DNA of 64,000 nucleotides from Candidatus Limnocylindrales bacterium (lineage in GTDB: Bacteria > Desulfobacterota > Binatia > UBA1149 > CAITLU01), in the NCBI GenBank assembly GCA_035571835.1, contig DATNBU010000043.1, forward strand, positions 1-64,000, in the 5' to 3' direction. The notes below the pieces were generated by a model, which saw only the letters and a program-made list of their open reading frames with translations, searched no databases and had not been told where the DNA came from. The stretch's first letter is position 1. The number at the start of each line of letters is the position of its first letter. This document shows, piece by piece, positions 57,157 through 62,431 of the stretch. The position numbers were made by a program, and so were the translations under genes.

Positions 57157-58530
57157 TCACGGAGCGGCCGCCGTCCCCCGACATTCCCCGCGGAATGTTC
57201 GCGCATCCGAGAGATTGCCGCGACATTCCGCGCTTCGTGTATCCGAGAGATTGCCGCGACATTCCGCGCGGAATGTTCGTGCATCGGCGAGATTGCCGCG
57301 CTTCGCATCCATGAAGGCGCGGCCAAAGTCGAGGTCCGCCTGATACTGGTTGTGTGCTGCGCAGCGCAGCTCGATGTTCTCGGGCGTAGGAGGTCCGCCC
57401 ATCGCGAAGGGGGCTCTGTGGTGGAACTCGATGTTGCTCGTCTCGCGGCAGCGACGCCCTCGTCCGTCTACGTAGCAGCAGCGACCCGAGTCCCGTCGCC
57501 ATACTTCGCGCCGCACGGCCGCGGGGATCGTCCGGGATCGCTGTGCTCGCTGCGAAGCGGCAGTAGCGGCCGCGGGCGTTGTGCCGGGTCGACCGGTGCA
57601 TTCCGCGTTCGTTGACGTGGTCGACCTCGGTCGATCGGCGCATATTTCTTTCGTCGGCGTCGTCGACCTCGGTCGATCGGTCGAGCCTGCCTTGCGCGCG
57701 AGCGTCCGGACGAGCAGCACGTCGATCGCACGACTGATGATCGCGGCCGCGTCGCGACCGGTCGACGAGCGGCCCAGCAGATCCTGCAGCGACCGAAGCT
57801 TGTCATGCGTGTCTTCGTCGACGGTGATCTCGATCTTGTAACGACGCGGGCTGAGCGGAACGATCGGCTTCGCAACTGTTGCCGGCTGCGCTGACCGGGG
57901 AGCGATCGCAGCGCCGACGACCTCGGATTCCGGCTCATTACTTGAGCAGCCGGCGGGTTCGCGGTCTGTCGAAGTGCGCCGATCGTCCGCACCGCCGGCC
58001 TCCTCGTGATCCGGCGAATCCCCGCCGGCCAACGTTGGCGCTGCCACCCCCGTCCCATCGCTCGCCGCGTCCGCACCGCGACGCCGCGGCATCGCCCGAA
58101 CACGCGACGCCACATCCGCTCGCGGCGCCAGCTCGGCAACCAGCCGCTCGACCTCGCGCGAGCTCTTGTGCCTGGCGCGCTCGAGCACTCGCAGGTGGTT
58201 CTCGGTGGTCAGATGCCTCGCCAGCAGATGGATCGCGCTCAGATGCAGCTCGCCGCGTGCGACAAGGTCGAGGACGACCGGAAAGCGACGCGCCGTGCGC
58301 GCAGCCCAAAGCCGCTTGGCAGTCACCTGCTCCGACATGTGGAATCGCTCCATGCAGAAGCTGAACATGGAGGAGCAGGCATGTCTGGCCCAGAGCTTGC
58401 GCTCATCGATTTCGGCGATCGCGACGAGAAGCGCCGCAGTCGTACGACGATCGCGGGCGACGAGGCACTCGAAGTGATCGAGCAGTTCCTTTTCGGAGAG
58501 CTTTGCAATGCTGTCGAAGGATGTCGTCAT
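57157..58530 (-). CDS. DUF222 and HNH endonuclease domain protein with repeat-derived C-terminal tail
   Basis: A 457-residue protein. The N-terminal helical DUF222-like region includes LWARHACSSMFSFCMERF, SEQVTAKRLWAARTARRFP and GELHLSAIHLLARHL. A disordered, polar middle (residues about 150-320) is rich in Ser, Thr and Asp. The HNH nuclease domain (about 330-410) holds RREVWRRDSGRCCYVDGRGR, EFHHRAPFAMGG and ENIELRCAAHNQYQADL. The last 48 residues are three peptide repeats (RGNLADARTFRAEC and variants) that are translated from the ACATTCC/GGAATGT DNA repeat. DUF222-HNH proteins are common in several phyla with unknown role, possibly mobile. AAGGAT precedes the ATG. Confidence 0.88.
   Translation of the reverse strand: MTTSFDSIAKLSEKELLDHFECLVARDRRTTAALLVAIAEIDERKLWARHACSSMFSFCMERFHMSEQVTAKRLWAARTARRFPVVLDLVARGELHLSAIHLLARHLTTENHLRVLERARHKSSREVERLVAELAPRADVASRVRAMPRRRGADAASDGTGVAAPTLAGGDSPDHEEAGGADDRRTSTDREPAGCSSNEPESEVVGAAIAPRSAQPATVAKPIVPLSPRRYKIEITVDEDTHDKLRSLQDLLGRSSTGRDAAAIISRAIDVLLVRTLARKAGSTDRPRSTTPTKEICADRPRSTTSTNAECTGRPGTTPAAATAASQRAQRSRTIPAAVRREVWRRDSGRCCYVDGRGRRCRETSNIEFHHRAPFAMGGPPTPENIELRCAAHNQYQADLDFGRAFMDAKRGNLADARTFRAECRGNLSDTRSAECRGNLSDARTFRGECRGTAAAP
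57181..57300. repeat. Palindromic dispersed repeat cluster inside the 3' end of the HNH gene
   Basis: On the opposite strand to the copies near 35 kb. Palindromes occur at 57181-57198 (arms ACATTCC and GGAATGT with centre CCGC) and 57259-57276 (perfect ACATTCCGCGCGGAATGT), with a half copy at 57223-57229. Repeats of the flank GAGATTGCCGCG lie between them. Downstream flank GGCGGCCGCT also matches the family. Confidence 0.85.
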
Positions 58531-59032: not shown

Positions 59033-60919
59033 TCACGCCCCAGCAACCGTGCACACTTCGATCGCGGCCGTGCGGCCGCGCAGCTCCACGCTTCCGCACC
59101 AGTCGACGGCGATCTTCGCACCCGCCTGTTCAGCACGGTGCACGGCGTCGGCCGAGATCACGACGGCGCGCGAGCGCTCCTTAGCGACATCGAGAAGCCG
59201 CGACGTTACGTTGACGGCGTCCCCGACGACCGTGTAGTCGAAGCGGTCCTCCGCGCCGAGCGTGGCGGCAACGACCGGGCCGGCATGAACGGCGATCAAC
59301 ACGCGCACGGGTTCGCCTCCGGCCTGCACGCGCGTCGCGGCGAACGCATCCAGGTCGCTGCGCAGGCGGAGCGCGCATTCGATGGCGGCAGCGGCTGCGC
59401 GGCTGGAAGCCGGCGCATGATCAGCATTCGGCCCCGGAACGGAAACAGACGCAGGATCGCAAACCGACGCGCTCTCCGGTTCCGTCTCCGCCTCGAGGTC
59501 AAACAGCCCGAACACCGCGAGCATCGCGTCGCCGACGAACTTGTCGACGGTTCCGCCCGCGCGCTTTACGCCCGCGGACATGATGCGGAATAACTCGTTC
59601 AGAGTTTCCACGACTTCTTCGGGCGGACTCTTCTCGGCCATGCGCGTGAACGCTCGGACGTCGGCAAACAGCACCGCCACCTCGCGCCGCTCGCCGCGCG
59701 GCGAGACCTCGCCGGCCAGCAGCCGGTCGCGCACGGCCGGATCGACGATCCGGCCGAAAGTGGCGAGGATATGGCTCTTCTCGCGCATCGAGCGGGCAAG
59801 CTCGTTGACGCCCTCAGCAAGCGAGCCGAGCTCGTCGCGGGTGCGCACGGCCACGTGCACGTCGAGGTTTCCATCGCGGATCCCGGCGAGCGCGCGCGTC
59901 AGCTCGCCAAGAGGCACCGTCAGCGAGCGCGCGAACATCCACACGTAGCCTGCGCCGGTCAGGATGAAGAACACGAAGATCCGCCCTGCGTTGCGCTGCA
60001 GCAAATCCATGATTCCGGTGTCTGCAAGGTCGGCGACCGCGCGATCGTTACCGGCTGCAACCATGCGATCGTCGCCAGCTGCGCCGACGCGATCGCTGCC
60101 GGCTGCACCGACGCGCTCGCTGCCTGCTGCACCGACGCGCTCGCTGCCTGCTGCAACAACGCGATCCTTCGCCGCTGCAGCCGCGCGCTCCTTCGCCGCC
60201 GCATCCGCGCGCTCCTTCGCCGCGGCAACCACGCGATCGTTGGCCGCGGCAATCACGCCGAGCAGCGCAAACGCAGGAATGAATCCGAGCGCGAACGCGA
60301 GCACGACGAGTCGCGCGGTGACAGGAAGGAACGGCGCACGGCGAACGGCGCGAAGGCCGCCTTCGGGAAAGACCAGCGGCACGATGCGCTCGCGGAACAC
60401 CCATTCCAGCATCAGGTACTGCGCCGTGGCCGCGACGAACCCGGAGAGCGCCGGCGTGATGACCTGCTCGGAGAGCATGTCGTCGGACCAGCGTCCGAAG
60501 CTCGTGATCGTGACGGCGACGAACGTCGCGATGCCGCCGATCCACGGCACGATCGTGATCGCCGAGAGCGCAAGCGGTGCACCGATCGCGCGCCGCTGCA
60601 CGGCCGGTGACGGCTCGGCGTTTCCGAGGCCGTCGTCGTCGAGAAAGAACCGGATCAGCGGCAGCAGGTACGCAAGCGAAACTCCGGTGACGACCACGAA
60701 CGCGACGATCACGTACGGCTGGTCGAACGGACGATGGACGAGGATGGCCTGCGTGGCCAGGTCGGAGGTGCCGCGCATGGCGCGACCAATGAGCCGCGCC
60801 AGGCCGGTCGCGACCAGGTGCGCGCCAACCGACAGCAGCGTGCCGGCAAGCAGCCAGAACAGGCCGGAGCTGCGGGCAGCCTTGCCCTCCGGCCCGCGCC
60901 CCCCGACGCTCCGTTTCAA
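59033..60919 (-). CDS. Class III adenylate cyclase with HAMP domain and octad-repeat loop
   Basis: About 628 residues from a TTG that overlaps the stop of the VOC gene (TTGA). Several membrane segments occupy residues 1-245, followed by nine octad repeats (AAGSERVG, AAKERADA and similar), a last membrane segment (IFVFFILTGAGYVWMFARSL), then HAMP (TVPLGELTRALAGIRDGNLDV) and the catalytic domain. Catalytic residues are present: metal Asp in VLFADVRAF and VGDAMLAVFG, the Lys-Asp adenine-selecting pair in VDKFVGD and DYTVVGD, and the Asn-Arg pair in AVNVTSRL. An insert of about 40 residues rich in Glu and Pro breaks the cyclase domain. It makes cAMP in response to an unknown signal. Confidence 0.88.
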   Translation of the reverse strand: MKRSVGGRGPEGKAARSSGLFWLLAGTLLSVGAHLVATGLARLIGRAMRGTSDLATQAILVHRPFDQPYVIVAFVVVTGVSLAYLLPLIRFFLDDDGLGNAEPSPAVQRRAIGAPLALSAITIVPWIGGIATFVAVTITSFGRWSDDMLSEQVITPALSGFVAATAQYLMLEWVFRERIVPLVFPEGGLRAVRRAPFLPVTARLVVLAFALGFIPAFALLGVIAAANDRVVAAAKERADAAAKERAAAAAKDRVVAAGSERVGAAGSERVGAAGSDRVGAAGDDRMVAAGNDRAVADLADTGIMDLLQRNAGRIFVFFILTGAGYVWMFARSLTVPLGELTRALAGIRDGNLDVHVAVRTRDELGSLAEGVNELARSMREKSHILATFGRIVDPAVRDRLLAGEVSPRGERREVAVLFADVRAFTRMAEKSPPEEVVETLNELFRIMSAGVKRAGGTVDKFVGDAMLAVFGLFDLEAETEPESASVCDPASVSVPGPNADHAPASSRAAAAAIECALRLRSDLDAFAATRVQAGGEPVRVLIAVHAGPVVAATLGAEDRFDYTVVGDAVNVTSRLLDVAKERSRAVVISADAVHRAEQAGAKIAVDWCGSVELRGRTAAIEVCTVAGA

Positions 60920-61341
60920 GAGGCCGCCGCGCCGAGCAGTCCTTTGCCGGGCACGTGGTTCATCTCGAGCCGGATCCCGTCCGGATCCTCGAACAGGATC
61001 GAGTAGTAGCCGGGCGCCCACGGGCCGTCTTCGGGCGAGTGGACGATGGTGGCGCCGAGCTCGACGAGGAAGCGGTGCAGCTCGTCGACGTCGGCGCGCT
61101 CCCGGGCGCGAAAGCAGATGTGGTGGAGGCCGACCCGTTCCTGGACGAAACGTTCGCCGCTGTGAATCGGTTCGCACGACCGGATTCCGAACGCGGTCCG
61201 GCCGCCGACGCAGTAGTAGAAGCCGTCGGCGTCGAGCACCGGGCGCATGCCGAGGAACGGCAGCAGCCGCGAGTAGAACTCGCGGGACCGGGCGAAATCG
61301 CTGGAGGTGATGAAGGTGTGGGCGACGCCGTTGATTTCCAT
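60916..61341 (-). CDS. VOC family (glyoxalase/dioxygenase-like) protein
   Basis: A 141-residue vicinal-oxygen-chelate domain starting MEINGVAHTFITSSDF. Metal ligands of the family would be H8 (GVAHTFI), H74 (VGLHHICFRA) and E125 (GIRLEMNHVP), with the usual FYSRLLPFLGM helix. Such proteins catalyse isomerisation, ring cleavage or drug inactivation, and the exact reaction is unknown. It overlaps the cyclase gene by TTGA, an odd pairing that hints at co-regulation. Confidence 0.85.
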   Translation of the reverse strand: MEINGVAHTFITSSDFARSREFYSRLLPFLGMRPVLDADGFYYCVGGRTAFGIRSCEPIHSGERFVQERVGLHHICFRARERADVDELHRFLVELGATIVHSPEDGPWAPGYYSILFEDPDGIRLEMNHVPGKGLLGAAAS

Positions 61342-61658
61342 TGCCGTGCTTCATGCTCCGGTCCGTGCCGCGGGCGGCCGGGCCTTGTGTAGTGTGGCGT
61401 GCTGTTAACTCGGCCGCGCGATCCAGGCCAGCGGGCTAGCCCCCGCACAGTCTTCCGTCCGGCCGCAACGTGTGACGGCCGGCGCGGAACCCCGGGAAAG
61501 TCCGGGTTCCGACTCAGGGCTGCACTTTCAATCTTTCGTACGACGGCAGGCATACCTTAGGTCGACGGCATGTTGTCATTCTGATGACAGGGCCGCCCCG
61601 GGCTGAAAAAAATCGAAAGGAACCGGCGTTGACTGTTTCTTGCGGGAGCGCACGGGGC

Positions 61659-61917
61659 TATGCTCCGCCCGGTCATAACTGGAGAGCTTCTAAAAGCTCT
61701 CAGATCTACTCGCCGATCCATTGAGAGGTAGGATCGGCGGGGACAGCGGGCGGCGTCGTTTGTGTGCTCCAGGTCCGGAAAGCCGCCTCTCTGCGGCAGT
61801 CCGGACGAGGTTTTCCCCCGTGACCTCAGCAGACGGGACCTCCCCCCGTCGCGAACGGCGCCGCCTCAACCTCGATATTAAAAAACGGCCACCGCGGATG
61901 CGGTGGCCGTTTTTTTA
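61659..61917 (+). ncRNA. Candidate structured small RNA
   Basis: On the plus strand TATGCT at 61659-61664 may be a -10 box with only weak -35 candidates. Downstream are three consecutive clean stem-loops: GAGAGCTT/AAGCTCTC (61682-61701, loop CTAA), CGCCGATCC/GGATCGGCG (61711-61739, 11-base loop) and GTCCGGA/TCCGGAC (61773-61806) with inner GCCGC/GCGGC. A terminator hairpin with a T-run ends at 61916. No gene on that strand follows, so a trans-acting or housekeeping RNA is more likely than a riboswitch. No known RNA family was recognised. Confidence 0.35.
61880..61916. terminator. Bidirectional rho-independent terminator
   Basis: ACGGCCACCGC pairs with GCGGTGGCCGT around a GGAT loop. The stem has an A-run on the left and a T-run on the right. 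It ends 24 bases after the stop of the minus-strand gene at 61940, whose transcript it would terminate, and it can also terminate the plus-strand candidate RNA. Confidence 0.85.
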
Positions 61918-61939
61918 CAACAGCCTCAGCGCGTGGCGG

Positions 61940-62431
61940 CTACTTCGTCGTCTCGACGATGATCGTCGCTTGGTAGAGCAGGCACGAGGTGCCGAGGTCC
62001 GAGTTGAGCCGCACCTCTACCGTGGAACCTGGAGGTACGGCCGGACCGCCCAGCTTCTCTGAGGCGAGATAATACGACTTCGACAGTACGCGGTAGCCCG
62101 ACGTCGAGCCCGAAAACTCGTAAGGCAGGCTGCCATCCTCCATGGTCTGGCCTCCGACGACTACCCGCGATGAGATCTTGTCGGTGCCGGAACACGCGAC
62201 CTGGTAGTTGGCCGTGACTTTGAGAAAACTGGCCGAGCTCTTGTAGCCCGTCGGCACGGCGACCGAAACTGCAGTCGTCTCCGACGGATACGCAGCGATA
62301 ACGGCGCCACCAACGGTTACTGCTGCGGTGGAAATCTTCTTTCCTACCTGGGCATGCACCGGCGTCGAAGACGCGGCTACCACCATCAGCGAAGCAACTC
62401 CCAGCATGATCTTTCGTATCGGTTTGTTCAC
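61940..62431 (-). CDS. Small secreted protein, function unknown
   Basis: A 163-residue protein from a GTG start with GGGAGA upstream. Residues 1-27 form a signal peptide ending VHAQ (NKPIRKIMLGVASLMVVAA). The mature part is beta-rich, with two cysteines (VACSGTDK and GTSCLLY) that could form one disulfide, and alternating hydrophobics (TVEVRLNSDL). A fibre or pilus-like subunit or adhesin is possible by composition only. It is followed by the terminator at 61880-61916, so it is a single transcription unit. Confidence 0.7.
   Translation of the reverse strand: MNKPIRKIMLGVASLMVVAASSTPVHAQVGKKISTAAVTVGGAVIAAYPSETTAVSVAVPTGYKSSASFLKVTANYQVACSGTDKISSRVVVGGQTMEDGSLPYEFSGSTSGYRVLSKSYYLASEKLGGPAVPPGSTVEVRLNSDLGTSCLLYQATIIVETTK

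Follow-up and report, generated by a model that had tools for sequence, protein, structure and literature searches.

A putative small RNA with two invariant, predicted exposed C-rich loops in a family of uncultured Binatia

The small RNA B11 is presumably a member of the 6C sRNA family of Actinobacteria (RF01066). In B11 of Mycobacterium abscessus, each of its two C-rich loops is enough on its own for repression of a reporter whose leader carries a G-tract (PMC10470900). In Sinorhizobium, a second report describes NfeR1 as silencing ntrB through anti-Shine-Dalgarno motifs in its loops that act at the translation start, and the alpha-r14 RNAs as forming three hairpins, each with an identical CCUCCUCCC left unpaired (PMC10746234). 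Exposed C-rich loops complementary to the Shine-Dalgarno sequence are a recognised antisense design (PMC10746234, PMC10470900). The locus described here very probably encodes a small RNA that is real and conserved, though narrowly distributed, and that has no match in Rfam 15, its novelty being claimed relative to that release and to the literature searched.

The window, by which is meant the whole 64,000-nucleotide stretch of DNA that was analysed, comes from the genome of a Candidatus Limnocylindrales bacterium (here G000). The gene-free region of about 600 bases noted in a first-pass annotation of this DNA corresponds to a gap of 598 bases (61342-61939) between two ORFs, both on the minus strand: a glyoxalase-like ORF at 60916-61341, named from its translation, and an ORF at 61940-62431, the translation of which reads as having an apparent signal peptide. 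A search of the window for tRNA and tmRNA genes found none. The gap also holds a second GC-rich stretch (61431-61525) with inverted repeats, e.g. GGAACCC at 61486 and GGGTTCC at 61504, the fold of which is modestly better than those of shuffled sequences on the plus strand (z = -2.52; 2 of 200 shuffles as good) and gives z = -1.18 on the minus strand. Elsewhere in the window, the minus-strand ORF at 59033-61354 contains AAGSERVG-type repeats at approximately 60040-60250, and its later part reads, by translation only, as an adenylate/guanylate cyclase; a further minus-strand ORF (57157-58530) has an HNH-endonuclease-like reading followed by repeats of type ECRGNLSDARTFR.

A search with blastn located the core region of the RNA in four of the seven genomes of the family, namely G000, one genome of the same genus (G004), and G001 and G003, the four together representing three genera. 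The part that is similar among these relatives amounts to 119 nucleotides on the plus strand, 61748-61866, which is less than the whole stretch first reported; this core is defined by the blastn matches, by covariance-model matches in G004, G001 and G003, and by the counts of pairs given below. The covariance model, R1, was built from the four carrier sequences. When applied under stricter filters to 148 genomes of the class, it returned the four carriers only, each with a single match, and there was no second copy in G000. Neither R1 nor a looser pattern detected a copy in G002, a member of the same genus as G001, and the five matches of R1 on G002, G005 and G006 included none that was convincing, the best having an E value of 2. 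With 395 genomes drawn from the phylum, G000, G003 and one weak match were among the matches listed; G001 and G004, absent among these, would match if drawn. The weak match, in G233 (34.9 bits, E = 0.004), was dismissed as chance, as it lies antisense inside an oxidoreductase-like ORF and has five mismatched pairs in the closing stem (P1, below). Weak matches of R1 in the window itself reach 17.4 bits, and those on the minus strand of sequences L012 and L011 (24.5 and 21.1 bits) mirror the same inverted repeats. A pattern scan of a named genome collection gave three records, one of which (L032) appears to be the contig of G001 that carries the RNA; the other two (L033 and L034) were judged to be chance, with no model match at the pattern. 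The looser pattern matched in 4 of 13 genomes, at the four RNAs and at one extra place in G003 that was likewise ascribed to chance, and a reversed control pattern gave two matches.

The surroundings of the RNA differ among its carriers. Named by reading their translations, its neighbours are an upstream glyoxalase-like ORF both in the window and in G004, an acyltransferase-like ORF in G001, where the RNA lies at the end of a contig, and transglutaminase-like and aminotransferase-like ORFs in G003. Given that the neighbours differ between genera, the RNA looks like a free-standing gene, and since the glyoxalase-like ORF found upstream in G004 is absent in G001 and G003, it has no fixed association with a single gene and is probably trans-acting.

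The core is composed of a closing stem of 15 bp, P1 (61748-61762 with 61852-61866), around three hairpins, P2 (61773-61806), P3 (61807-61827) and P4 (61832-61850), all on the plus strand, and is predicted to form a four-way junction. P2 is the most variable arm. P3 takes the form GAGGUY...GACCUC with CCCCCGU in its loop (61815-61821), and P4, the 5' arm of which ends in GGG, presents the anti-Shine-Dalgarno-like ACCUCC in its loop (61838-61843). Both loop sequences are identical in all four carriers; they constitute the invariant part of the RNA, whereas the stems that bear them either vary between the sequences (P4) or are almost constant (P3). ACCUCC is predicted to be unpaired with a probability of 0.92-1.0 in each of the four. 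For CCCCCGU, every letter except the G is predicted to be unpaired at 0.88 at least in the four sequences, the G itself being at 0.81 in the window and at 0.16-0.39 in the other three carriers; the mean for this loop is 0.95 in the window. As the G+C content of the core is approximately 70%, C-rich loops are partly expected.

That this stretch is a structured RNA had been proposed by the first-pass annotation, which looked to compensatory changes in relatives as a check; the three relatives supply such changes for P1, P2 and P4, while P3 is uninformative. In P1, all 15 pairs are kept in the four sequences and five have changed on both sides, with G-C to A-U, C-G to U-A, U-A to C-G and U-G among the changes. 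With P2, three of the 11 pairs counted have changed on both sides, and 3 of 44 cells are unpaired. Each of the six pairs of P3 is kept in all four sequences, five of them unchanged, so covariation says little for this stem. The six pairs of P4 are also kept throughout, two having changed on both sides, in a register that was set by hand because the MAFFT alignment puts P4 one base out of register. Taking P1-P3 together in alignment A1, 125 of 128 cells pair, a value reached by none of 500 shuffles, and partners slid by 1-3 columns as a control pair in 37-49% of cells. Changes on both sides affect 8 of these 32 pairs (shuffled mean, 4.0; reached in 4 of 500 shuffles), and the covariation score is 0.339 against 0.205 (reached in 0 of 500); further pair types show no excess over shuffles (172 of 500 reach the count). 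When P1, P3 and P4 were registered by hand, 108 of 108 cells paired and 7 of 27 pairs had changed on both sides. All of these compensatory counts rest on four sequences from one family, two of which are 90% alike. The changes in P1 are those expected from a kept stem, modest though the counts are.

The G-U pairs of P1, P3 and P4, of which there are one to four per sequence, would become A-C mismatches if the minus strand were the RNA and hence identify the plus strand as the RNA. The ends of the core form an inverted repeat of 15 bases, which might otherwise be taken as part of a DNA element, such as the end of a mobile element or an attC-like site, or as a chance palindrome. This is extremely unlikely: each carrier has one copy, the G-U pairs fit the plus strand only, blastn found no match among plasmids and phages, and the conserved pattern is absent from viral contigs. 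An equally slight probability attaches to the proposal of a coding sequence or a cis-regulatory leader. Frames +0 and -0, counted from the first base of the core, are open in each of the four sequences and an ORF at 61721-62062 spans the core; despite these two open frames, a coding function was rejected because the P3 loops of the window and of its closest relative, G004, differ in length by one base, which puts the two out of frame with each other. With respect to a leader, both flanking ORFs in the window are on the other strand.

The predicted folding energy of 61665-61920 is -136.6 kcal/mol on the plus strand, where shuffled sequences have a mean of -94.6 kcal/mol (sd 4.88; z = -8.61), and the minus strand gives a z value of -5.50; on neither strand was any of 200 shuffles as good. 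For the 119-nt core alone, the values are -5.67 on the plus strand (0 of 200) and -3.39 on the minus strand (1 of 200). The cores of all four carriers have z values of -4.0 to -6.0 relative to shuffles, with 1 of 200 shuffles folding as well as the core of G004 and none as well as the other three. The fold contains each of the three hairpins that had been seen earlier, at 61682-61701 (H1), 61709-61741 (P0) and 61773-61806 (P2 of the core), together with the 16-bp terminator-like stem at 61880-61915. That first list of features was thus sound in what it named, and incomplete in that it missed the main stem, P1, as well as P3 and P4.

Outside of the core, conservation is uneven. For H1, on the plus strand and predicted by the fold, visual inspection of the leaders of the other three carriers revealed no counterpart. 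P0, also on the plus strand, is present in the folds of all four sequences and in alignment A2, where its base, UCGCC/GGCG, is kept in each of the four, its upper part is variable, and the GGCG ends eight columns before the core in every case; in G001 the stem carries a 5-base bulge. Further upstream, a -10-like hexamer on the plus strand, TATGCT (61659-61664), was picked by eye and would probably place the transcription start at about 61671. It stands without a good -35 sequence at the usual spacing, and the sole site returned by a consensus promoter scan was a different one (61584-61613; 9 of 12 matches). Upstream of the core in the relatives, the -10-like hexamers TATGCT, TATTGT and TAGACT were likewise chosen by eye; the distances from the first base of the hexamer to the core are 90, 108 and 69 bases in the relatives, and 89 in the window.

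At the other end, the terminator-like hairpin at 61880-61915 is symmetric, with an A run on one side and a T run on the other, and it is seen in the fold and by its match to itself on the opposite strand. It lies 24 bases past the point at which the convergent minus-strand ORF stops, and it may serve the RNA, that convergent gene, or both. A simple scan omitted it, probably because the T run lies inside the stem. With the contig of G001 ending two bases beyond the core, the comparison of this feature covers G004 and G003, and a terminator after the core was not seen by eye in either one.

A search of Rfam 15 across the window gave no match at the gathering score, which bears out the earlier impression that no known family could be recognised. 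Of the matches up to an E value of 10, Guanidine-III alone overlaps the core, scoring 14.6 bits where its gathering score is 36; the 12 weak matches within 61400-62000 are located over the terminator, at other places in the gap or, in the case of Guanidine-III, on the core, and the four weak matches in L010, L011 and L012 do not overlap a core. No match to the 6C family was found up to E 10 in 61400-62000 or in L010, L011 and L012. The alpha-r14 family (RF02344) scored 27.7 bits, below its cut-off of 58.8, and this weak minus-strand match (61880-61964) covers the terminator rather than the core; L010-L012 gave none up to E 10.

B11 and the 6C RNAs share with this locus two hairpins with C-rich exposed loops, here by prediction P3 and P4. 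The difference is that the hairpins here are set inside a four-way junction with a 15-bp closing stem, and their loops are CCCCCGU and ACCUCC. With alpha-r14 (NfeR1), the likeness lies in stems that differ while conserved anti-Shine-Dalgarno letters stay unpaired (PMC10746234). In contrast to the three CCUCCUCCC hairpins of that family, the present RNA has two loops that are unlike each other. Judging from sequence and predicted fold, this RNA would work like B11/6C or alpha-r14 (NfeR1) and be a member of neither, as neither family's model matches the core up to E 10 and the architecture is a different one.

RNAs of the CsrB/RsmZ type carry repeated GGA in exposed hairpin loops. The first-pass annotation had suggested that GGA-containing single strands at this locus might bind a CsrA-type protein, and there are indeed seven GGA triplets within 61672-61917. 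However, three of these are wholly paired, three are partly so, and the sole wholly unpaired GGA sits in the loop of the terminator, such that, unlike CsrB and RsmZ, the RNA displays no repeated GGA in exposed loops and none at all outside of the terminator. Moreover, CsrA (PF02599) was not found in the genome of the window or in the three RNA-carrying relatives; among the 13 genomes searched it was detected in one, G005, which is without the RNA (controls were found in 3 of 14). Hfq was found in none of the 13 genomes, with its control found in 5 of 14. As neither CsrA nor Hfq was found in the four carriers, the CsrA proposal is not supported, and, barring a CsrA that escaped recognition, the probability that the RNA serves to sequester CsrA is practically negligible.

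The invariant loops predicted to be exposed, the failure to find Hfq or CsrA, and the precedents of B11 and NfeR1 lead to the reading that this is a chaperone-independent, translation-blocking, base-pairing sRNA, to which we assign a probability of roughly 60% on the basis of the analysis. By prediction, the locus is an RNA gene between ORFs, conserved within one family, that exposes two invariant C-rich loops. The gene would be transcribed on its own from a start near 61671, and its product would act in trans. The RNA would fold into P0 and the four-way junction closed by P1, the junction holding P3 and P4 such that CCCCCGU and ACCUCC stay single-stranded. ACCUCC is complementary to the Shine-Dalgarno sequence GGAGGU, and the two loops would pair, without Hfq, with the G-rich Shine-Dalgarno regions of several mRNAs, the putative targets, and thereby block their translation.

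The same loops could instead be contacts for a protein. A structured RNA that mainly binds protein, as a scaffold or decoy, would be well suited by a four-way junction, a long closing stem and invariant loops, and the conservation of the loops could reflect protein binding. Against this, neither CsrA nor Hfq was detected in the carriers and no candidate partner is known, while exposed C-rich loops complementary to the Shine-Dalgarno sequence are, as introduced above, a recognised antisense design; this alternative is considered unlikely. ACCUCC is also the core of the 16S rRNA anti-Shine-Dalgarno sequence, and its invariance and predicted exposure in P4 would be consistent with a mimic of the 16S rRNA 3' tail that acts on ribosomes or initiation overall rather than on chosen mRNAs. 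CCCCCGU, however, is not part of the 16S tail, and the presence of this second invariant loop suggests a more specific pairing, which makes a general mimic improbable.

A further possibility concerns 6S RNA, which is a long rod with a central bubble resembling an open promoter. The new RNA is of a similar length class, and 6S RNA is found in close relatives that are without it; the predicted four-way junction in place of a rod, and the different location, set the two apart. The 6S model (RF00013) matched in 8 of 13 genomes (G005-G012), seven over the cut-off and G006 just below, and was not found in G000-G004. Of the five genomes without 6S RNA, four have the new RNA and one, G002, has neither; the eight with 6S RNA all lack the new one. 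The 6S gene adjoins a zapA-like gene in G005-G009 and a fau-like gene in G005, G007, G008 and G010-G012, lying between the two in G005, G007 and G008. In G001-G004 (L025-L028), only 25-66 bases separate the end of the zapA-like ORF from the start of the fau-like ORF, leaving no room for 6S RNA there. Six of the seven family genomes have the zapA-like gene; in the seventh, G000, a search with the G005 protein did not find it, and consequently the usual 6S site is not seen in that genome.

These observations would fit a functional replacement, in which 6S RNA was lost beside zapA and an unrelated RNA took over its role by acting on translation or polymerase, or else a 6S RNA that moved and was rebuilt. 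If true, a widespread transcription regulator would have been exchanged for a new RNA acting on translation, or on polymerase in another way. A 6S RNA by homology was rejected, as searches up to E 10 gave no RF00013 match to the core, and G000 has none. The junction fold also argues against replacement, as does the consideration that a single loss plus a single gain within one branch would produce this pattern, with G002 lacking both RNAs and the site in G000 not seen. In addition, RF00013 was found in only 25 of the 148 class genomes under stricter filters, and so either the model misses many or 6S RNA is often absent. Replacement of 6S RNA is for these reasons regarded as very improbable, and the coincidence of the new RNA with the missing 6S RNA may be just two events on one branch; it nevertheless merits study in more genomes.

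A lineage of uncultured bacteria that has received little study gains a conserved RNA family for which Rfam 15 holds no match. If, as favored here, the RNA is a base-pairing sRNA that blocks translation, the two invariant loops would amount to a directly testable rule for its targets. Hfq was found in none of the 13 genomes searched and CsrA in one, and in such a lineage the RNA may also offer a handle on RNA regulation that operates without the usual helper proteins.
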